Origin: Sulfurimonas sp. hsl 1-7
GTDB lineage: Bacteria; Campylobacterota; Campylobacteria; Campylobacterales; Sulfurimonadaceae
Assembly: GCF_030577135.1 (NCBI RefSeq)
Contig: NZ_JAUIRR010000001.1
Span: 372,001-436,000, forward strand
Direction: 5' to 3'
DNA length: 64,000 nucleotides
Of the stretch, positions 56,857 to 58,103 are shown one piece after another. Under the pieces are notes generated by a model. That model was not told the DNA's origin. It did not search any database and was given only the letters and a program-made list of their open reading frames with translations. The position numbers and the translations under genes are program-made. Numbering within the stretch: the first letter of the stretch is position 1; every line of letters begins with the position of its first letter.

Positions 56857-57381
56857 ATGAAGTTTTTTAGTGGTTTTTCGCTGCAAAATGAGCAGTATCT
56901 TTTTTCACCTTTTATCAAAAAGAGTGAAGTTTGTGTATGTGGTTTTAGTTACGGTGCTATAAAAGCGTTTGAGTATACTCAAAAGTGTTTAAAAGAGAGC
57001 AAAAGAGTAGATACTCTACAACTTTTCTCACCCGCTTTTTTTCAAACAAAAGATGAGAAGTTCAAGCGTTTACAGCTAATGTCATACAAAAAAAACAAAG
57101 AGTTATATTTAGAGAATTTTATAAGCTCTTGTTTTGCTCCTTATGAGAAAAAAATAGTTGAGCTAAATGACTATGACACGATCGATGATCTTCAAAAGTT
57201 ACTTGAGTATGAATGGGATTTAGAAGAGTTACAAAAGATTGTAGATGCAGGCGTTGTAATTGAAGTCTATTTAGGATTTGAAGATAAGATCATAGATGCA
57301 GAGGGTGCTTACCAGTTTTTTAGACAAGTTGCGAATGTGACTTCATTTAAAAAAGCAAATCATTTTTTACAGCTGTGTTAA
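56857..57381 (+). CDS. bioV: small alpha/beta hydrolase, BioV-type pimeloyl-ACP methyl ester esterase
   Basis: A 174-residue minimal alpha/beta hydrolase. The nucleophile elbow GFSYGAIKAFEY places the serine near residue 31, D148 region (GFEDKIID) can supply the acid, and the histidine is in ANHFLQLC at the C-terminus. Its short length and genomic place after the FtsH-like ATPase match the BioV family of Campylobacterota, which frees pimeloyl-ACP for biotin synthesis in place of BioH. No other biotin gene is in the window. It is the last gene of the aroB run, 6 bases after its neighbour. Confidence 0.7.
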   Translation: MKFFSGFSLQNEQYLFSPFIKKSEVCVCGFSYGAIKAFEYTQKCLKESKRVDTLQLFSPAFFQTKDEKFKRLQLMSYKKNKELYLENFISSCFAPYEKKIVELNDYDTIDDLQKLLEYEWDLEELQKIVDAGVVIEVYLGFEDKIIDAEGAYQFFRQVANVTSFKKANHFLQLC

Positions 57382-57383
57382 GT

Positions 57384-57456
57384 AATTTTTAGAGTCAAAA
57401 TTCCGAGGACAAATCCTCCCTGCGGTCTGAGCCTCTCCATTTAGACTCTAAAAATT
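57384..57456. repeat. hairpin A of a two-part inverted repeat element
   Basis: A perfect 13-bp inverted repeat (AATTTTTAGAGTC at 57384-57396 with its complement at 57444-57456) encloses a 47-base interior. The interior has a nested GAGGA/TCCTC stem with a CAAA loop (57404-57417). The 40 bases 57397-57436 recur in inverted orientation in hairpin B with 33 of 40 identical. It lies directly after bioV, before mog, and is not a standard terminator because no T run follows on either side. Confidence 0.75.
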
Positions 57457-57465
57457 TATGGGCTG

Positions 57466-57542
57466 TGTATTTATATTTTTAAAACGTAGAAGCTCAGAGC
57501 GAAGCGAGGATTCGTCTTCGGAGTTTTAATAATATAAATACA
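57466..57542. repeat. hairpin B of a two-part inverted repeat element
   Basis: Arms 57466-57485 and 57523-57542 pair at 19 of 20 positions and enclose a 37-base GC-richer interior with a nested GAAG/CTTC stem. Bases 57488-57527 are the inverted copy of 57397-57436 in hairpin A. The base composition is unlike the flanking AT-rich spacer. It ends 28 bases before the mog start and leaves the mog ribosome site (GAAGGA) free. The paired inverted layout recalls REP/BIME-type elements. Confidence 0.75.
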
Positions 57543-57569: not shown

Positions 57570-58103
57570 ATGAGTGAAATAAAAATAGGTGTTATAACGG
57601 CTAGTGACAGAGCTAGTAAAGGGATTTACGAAGATATTTCAGGTGTAGCTATTCAAGATACTATGAAAGATTATTTAAAAAGCGAATTTGAGATCGTTTA
57701 CAGATGTATCCCTGATGAACAAGATCATATTGAAGCGACAATGAAAGAGTTGTGTGATGATGAAGGGTGTTGTTTGGTTGTAACTACAGGTGGAACTGGT
57801 CCAGCACTTCGTGATGTAACTCCGGAAGCTACTGAAAACGTATGTCAGAAGATGATGCCAGGTTTTGGTGAATTAATGCGCCAAGTGAGTCTTCAGTATG
57901 TTCCAACGGCTATTTTATCTCGTCAAACGGCAGGGATTCGCGGAAAGTCTTTAATTATTAATTTACCGGGTAAACCAAAGTCTATTCGTGAGTGTTTAGA
58001 TGCAGTTTTTCCTGCTGTACCGTATTGTATTGACCTTATTGAAGGACCGTACATTGAAACAAACGAAGACGTGATCAAAGCATTTAGACCAAAGGCAAAA
58101 TAA
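57570..58103 (+). CDS. mog: molybdopterin adenylyltransferase (MogA/MoaB family)
   Basis: A 177-residue protein with the MoCF fold. IKIGVITASDRASKGIYED at the N-terminus, TTGGTGPALRDVTPEAT and LIINLPGKPKSIRECLDAV are family signatures. It activates molybdopterin with ATP before molybdenum insertion. The start has a GAAGGA site at 57556-57561. It is coupled to hemF by a one-base overlap and preceded by the two-hairpin element. Confidence 0.93.
   Translation: MSEIKIGVITASDRASKGIYEDISGVAIQDTMKDYLKSEFEIVYRCIPDEQDHIEATMKELCDDEGCCLVVTTGGTGPALRDVTPEATENVCQKMMPGFGELMRQVSLQYVPTAILSRQTAGIRGKSLIINLPGKPKSIRECLDAVFPAVPYCIDLIEGPYIETNEDVIKAFRPKAK

Follow-up and report, generated by a model that had tools for sequence, protein, structure and literature searches.

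The window analysed here, a stretch of 64,000 nucleotides from Sulfurimonas sp. hsl 1-7, contains two hairpins lying side by side in the spacer between bioV and mog, the latter being followed by a gene encoding a coproporphyrinogen-oxidase-like protein (Table 1). A first-pass annotation of this DNA had described hairpin A as closed by a perfect 13-bp stem (57384-57396 with 57444-57456) and hairpin B by a 19/20-bp stem (57466-57485 with 57523-57542), with interiors (57397-57436 and 57488-57527) that are inverted copies of each other at 33/40 identity and richer in GC than the surrounding spacer. All these observations were reproduced: an identity of 33/40 was reached by none of 200,000 random inverted 40-mer pairs from the same window, and GC content was 0.53 and 0.50 in the two cores against 0.21 in the remaining spacer. 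When mismatches are allowed, the stems extend beyond the limits originally proposed, to 25 nt in unit A (84%) and 27 nt in unit B (85%). The two units are in opposite orientation; RNA folding of the two-hairpin region gave z = -5.05, and single units folded as DNA gave z of about -5 on either strand.

Table 1. Genes and hairpin features of the bioV-mog region (positions in the window).
Feature	Positions	Strand	Evidence
bioV, upstream flanking gene, outside the element	56857..57381	+	NF033854, E 1.9e-66
Unit A, hairpin, core reads + strand towards mog	57384..57456	+	Covariance-model match G000:C1:429384-429456, 83.3 bits; inverted repeat
Unit A, locus-specific stem	57384-57408 / 57432-57456	+	Inverted repeat
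Unit A, conserved 31-nt apical core, GAGGACAAATCCTCCCTGCGGTCTGAGCCTC	57405..57435	+	Alignment with 62 other units; column counts
Unit A, inner mini-hairpin CCTGCGG, covaries with GCTTCGC of other units	57419..57425	+	Helix 3 pair counts: CG 52, GC 8
Unit B, hairpin, inverted orientation (model match 57468-57540)	57466..57542	-	Covariance-model match G000:C1:429468-429540, 79.1 bits; inverted repeat
Unit B, stem	57466-57492 / 57516-57542	-	Inverted repeat
Unit B, conserved apical core, GAAGACGAATCCTCGCTTCGCTCTGAGCTTC on the - strand	57489..57519	-	Alignment
Unit B, inner mini-hairpin GCTTCGC, complement GCGAAGC	57499..57505	-	Alignment and pair counts
mog, downstream flanking gene, outside the element	57570..58103	+	NF006932, E 1.1e-88

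Hairpins A and B are members of a dispersed, previously unlisted family of short intergenic DNA hairpins present in Sulfurimonas and related bacteria. A BLAST search of the source genome (G000) with the spacer identified seven further places carrying the core, and a covariance-model search recovered 13 units. The earlier remark that no further copy occurs was thus correct for the window; the genome, however, holds 11 more units, which rules out a purely local leader structure. Within the genus, where S. autotrophica is one of the carriers, 44 of 135 Sulfurimonas genomes have units, with 1-19 copies each, and in an even sample of the order Campylobacterales they were found in 38 of 399 genomes and 14 of 87 genera. 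Inverted, BIME-like pairs occur in the window and also in G078, G014, G001, G302 and G270. The search against Rfam 15 yielded no gathering-level match, the sub-threshold matches being at chance level only, and IMG/VR, a plasmid collection and a phage collection returned 0 units at the sensitivity used, so that carriage on plasmids, phages or viral contigs was rejected. In a literature search restricted to main texts, the element was not mentioned and no Sulfurimonas family was described, palindromic repeats being treated generally in PMC3733652 and PMC12306157. A second core type, with CTCCCTTGCTCACGAG in place of CTCCCTTCGGTCTGAG, was observed in L023, L034, L112, L113, L114 and L167; L034 and L029 have identical arms and different core types.

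Every unit consists of a near-invariant 31-nt apical core (GAGGACAAATCCTCCCTTCGGTCTGAGCCTC) atop a stem of approximately 22-30 bp of locus-specific sequence. Starting at the foot, some 18 well-paired stem positions are followed in many units by an internal loop of about 3 positions, and then, towards the tip, by a 4-bp GAGG/CCTC helix, a one-sided 7-nt bulge (RCAAATC), a constant CTC/GAG helix, a TCT bulge, a 2-bp helix alternating between CC/GG and GC/GC, and a triloop. The CTC/GAG helix is almost invariant and, because it hardly varies, is inferred rather than demonstrated by covariation. In the unit alignment the covariation score reached 0.685, compared with 0.147 for shuffled and at most 0.159 for slid alignments; 90.5% of cells were paired, 531 cells had changed on both sides against 162, and most arm positions of the stem carry all pair types. 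Pairing in Sulfurimonas amounts to 0.86-0.97 at the outermost model positions and lies at chance level from position +3, while families f7b and f20 reach chance somewhat further out; within a lineage, stem length is near-constant. Given this drop to chance just outside the model together with the strong covariation, the stem is bounded in length and free in sequence. The identity of the family resides in the 31-nt apical core, and the stem is a structural part, constrained in pairing and roughly in length, not in sequence.

The two strands of the element are not equivalent. Among mismatched arm pairs, A-C is much more frequent than G-T, with counts of 95 and 30 for Sulfurimonas (p 5e-9) and of 29 and 5 for the other families (p 4e-5), and the ratio is still 11:3 in non-Sulfurimonas units facing away from the gene, the excess thus being independent of gene orientation; in families f7 and f7b, taken singly, mismatches are too rare for the bias to be seen. 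An A-C mismatch on one strand is a G-T (G-U) pair on the other, and for 100 of the 105 Sulfurimonas units the better RNA fold is that of the complement. From these sequence comparisons, the folding strand is judged to be the complement (5'-CTCAGACCGAAGGGAGGATTTGTCCTC), in Sulfurimonas mostly the strand opposite to the mRNA. The mutational strand asymmetry of coding strands usually favours the opposite excess, so the asymmetry belongs to the element and not to the transcript. Contrary to the general asymmetry, a small number of U-G pairs in the inner core helices fall on the other strand.

Sulfurimonas units typically lie a few bases past the upstream stop codon and approximately 20-60 nt ahead of a start codon. 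The core reads towards the next start codon in 12 of the 13 units of the source genome, and across Sulfurimonas 88 cores point towards the nearest start codon and 10 away from it; outside the genus, 27 units are sense and 18 antisense, and some convergent spacers are occupied. Replication as the determinant of orientation was rejected, since the thiG and moaD units, 7 kb apart on one contig, lie on opposite strands and each follows its own gene. Downstream genes in the source genome, named by reading their protein sequences, include hemN, mqnE, ribE, thiG, moaD, queD and pta. This first list (heme, molybdenum cofactor, thiamin, riboflavin and menaquinone) looked suggestive of a riboswitch-type leader with a metabolic theme, but the theme fails in other genomes, which add ppnP, glmM, tkt, gltX, dnaE, prfB and more.

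Comparison of the bioV-mog spacer across relatives revealed that it is occupied in several lineages and of near-zero length in most. On the mog tree the state of the spacer changes about six times, at least three of them on supported branches, the upstream sequence of two non-carrier rows (L048 and L057) being too short for certainty. Orthologous copies, such as those at mog in several lineages, have kept intact cores in spite of diverged arms and flanks, and this long retention suggests that the Sulfurimonas copies are also under selection at the level of the host. In element-free relatives the same spacer often holds unrelated hairpin-rich repeats (L030, L040, L047, L048, L069, L078, L083 and L100), for example repeats of the GGGAATAAAAAGGTTCC type, which are also present in L156/L159; the region upstream of mog consequently looks like a hot spot for palindromic insertions.

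Filled and empty versions of orthologous sites could be compared directly. The closely related genomes G014 and G000 are filled and empty, respectively, at xylB, DedA, ffh and tkt, where the empty sites of G000 are short spacers and, at xylB, the genes abut directly. Similarly, in family f20, G395 has approximately 81-87 extra nucleotides at three loci with respect to several relatives; its unit at L250 shares a stretch of 66 nt, 100% identical, with the ruvC-locus unit of G460, while the ruvC unit of G395 itself has different arms. The alignments of empty and filled sites contained no constant direct duplication. Homologous arms enclose cores of opposite orientation at nifS-nifU, at greA and at ruvC (G460 versus G470/G487), and the one unit that G014 has at mog can be aligned with A and, inverted, with B. 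Between G000 and G014, units and flanks are near-identical at thiG (L107/L145), queD (L111/L154) and S4 (L106/L146) and the arms are strongly changed at mog, hemN, ribE and mqnE, a contrast pointing to probably uneven histories along the genome. The right arm of the unit in the ruvC spacer of G460 (L379) is apparently interrupted by another short hairpin, GACTTGTT...AACAAGTC, representing a nested insertion. The convergent L250 spacer of G444 (L373) and G454 (L378) contains a further long hairpin, distinct in its loop (CACTGATAGAA...) and oriented oppositely in the two genomes, possibly a second family behaving alike.

The arms themselves appear to evolve in concert. Among 12 close copies of family f20, 38 deviations from the arm consensus are mirrored and 3 are one-sided; the inner 11 arm positions are common to the copies and the outer ones locus-specific, the outer stem still being 0.88-1.00 paired up to position 22. 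Because independent point mutation would give one-sided steps first, the two arms probably change together, through templated copying or through very strong selection for pairing. At one locus, L249, an arm falls within the 3' end of the gene upstream and can be aligned to coding sequence in element-free relatives (DDREILKLL versus DDREIIKQL at the peptide level); with one arm homologous to coding sequence at empty sites, the second has the appearance of a target copy in inverse orientation. No other locus places an arm within conserved coding sequence, and L269, L271 and L166 proved uninformative; this single clear case supports, but does not establish, inverted duplication of the target.

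The first-pass annotation had likened the two hairpins to REP/BIME elements mobilised by Y1 (RAYT) transposases. The resemblance stands in so far as the family is a dispersed palindromic repeat that is intergenic, sometimes forms inverted pairs and has a single-strand asymmetry, and the folding strand has GTAG, the tag of such elements, at its 5' foot in 11 of 105 units against 2 of 440 control windows. Mobilisation by RAYT, however, did not hold: Y1_Tnp (PF01797) is absent from six high-copy carriers (G000, G014, G016, G034, G035 and G074), none of the 10 Y1 loci inspected carries a unit, and GTAG is not general among the 105 units, the remaining feet having ATAG, ATAA and others. With stem sequence that is not conserved and a low copy number (1-19), the family also departs from classical REPs, whose membership was rejected on the RAYT gene, the GTAG/CGTC tag, sequence conservation and copy number; we therefore see little chance that it is a REP/BIME family moved by a Y1 transposase. 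Dependence on a reverse transcriptase was likewise rejected, as RVT_1 is absent from most carriers, including the richest.

Readings that place the function in RNA were also weighed. The units might constitute a new cis-regulatory RNA of 5' leaders and intercistronic spacers, in which the mRNA hairpin would offer the apical core to a protein or ligand and so control the downstream gene or intercistronic processing. The position and orientation of the units in the source genome, their vertical conservation with compensatory change and the dedicated inner helices are what such an RNA would give, and yet wobble pairs are tolerated on the opposite strand, units outside Sulfurimonas have no uniform orientation and occupy some convergent spacers, cores flip at orthologous sites, target genes share no common theme, many relatives have a spacer of near zero in place of the element, and no Rfam family matches. 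Neither a folded strand equal to the mRNA strand nor an orientation fixed to the gene was found, which makes the cis-regulatory reading unlikely. Its local version, an RNA structure in the mog-hemF leader as initially suggested, is disfavoured because the asymmetry belongs to the element: in most Sulfurimonas units the wobble-tolerant strand is opposite the mRNA, and the element stands next to unrelated genes. A small RNA, either antisense or independent, produced from the best-folding strand and starting near the beginning of the downstream gene, would agree with the better folding of the complement and with its purine-rich unpaired residues (AGA, GAA, GATTTGY), but we consider it improbable, in that the spacer between unit and start codon is often just 20-30 nt, inspection by eye found no conserved promoter on that strand, and the mixed gene orientation would require a promoter within many unrelated genes. 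Relic palindromes that no longer move, and whose perfection is due solely to cruciform resolution and to mutation bias through quasi-palindrome template switching, would be expected to display the mirrored changes and loop flips; we regard them as very improbable in view of a core conserved through strongly diverged arms, a bounded stem length and inner arms shared by homologous copies at different loci.

The explanation we favour, to which we give about an even chance, is that the family represents a RAYT-independent, strand-specific, non-autonomous mobile hairpin element of Campylobacterales. The active form would be a single strand folded on itself, 5'-arm-GAGGCTCAGACCGAAGGGAGGATTTGTCCTC-arm', most likely single-stranded DNA, handled by a putative trans-acting recombinase or transposase that is predicted to bind preferentially the 5'-CTCAGACC strand. 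At insertion or later, one arm may be rewritten with the other as template, by snap-back or hairpin-templated copying, and outer arm segments may derive from the target. What was observed directly is that the units are dispersed and cleanly present or absent, that cores flip between their arms, that the two strands differ, that stem length has a limit and that arm changes are mirrored. The weak points of the mobile-element reading are that no enzyme is tied to the family, that no copy was caught in the act of spreading, that a purely selfish element does not need the orientation bias seen in Sulfurimonas, and that cores are kept intact at individual loci, which implies some host-level use; the copying step, in turn, meets the objection that mirrored changes could also reflect very strong selection for pairing. 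A more specific version, tentative and on the whole doubtful, holds that transmission is limited to the tip, made up of the core and about 11 bp of inner arm. On insertion, the remaining stem would arise by hairpin-templated copying of a fixed length of the target flank, each copy would consequently be enclosed by its own target in inverted duplicate, and the two arms would later be rewritten together. If true, inverted target duplication would be an insertion mode unlike those of known bacterial elements. The data set is unusually clean, with orthologous filled and empty sites, flips, and stem pairing kept while sequence is replaced, and the family makes it testable how such elements spread without RAYT and whether it is selection or hairpin-templated copying that keeps long bacterial palindromes perfect.

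Several known systems share part of these features. Like REP, BIME and REPIN sequences with their TnpA-REP (RAYT) proteins (PMC8266576, PMC3116915, PMC3733652), the units are short, intergenic, non-autonomous palindromes occurring in inverted pairs with an apparent single-strand substrate, but their richest carriers have no RAYT, there is no general GTAG/CGTC tag, and a free stem sequence is combined with a conserved tip core and a low copy number. MITEs are equally small, non-autonomous and palindromic, with clean presence/absence; the arrangement is reversed here, the centre being constant and the ends not, as the outer arms are locus-specific and no constant direct target duplication was found. 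Riboswitch-type cis-regulatory RNAs likewise lie immediately upstream of genes and have variable, covarying stems beneath a conserved tip; the present family differs from them in the strand indicated by the wobble asymmetry, the mixed orientation in the families outside Sulfurimonas, and the lack of a common gene theme and of an Rfam match. In integron attC sites the folded single strand matters and the bottom strand is used (PMC2727003, PMC6393395). In our family, by contrast, conservation is found in the tip and not in basal R boxes (unit alignments contained no conserved R' or R'' foot boxes), units do not always lie at the 3' end of a gene, and no cassette arrays were seen; the likeness is that in both one folded strand matters, attC being recognised by structure with little sequence conservation.
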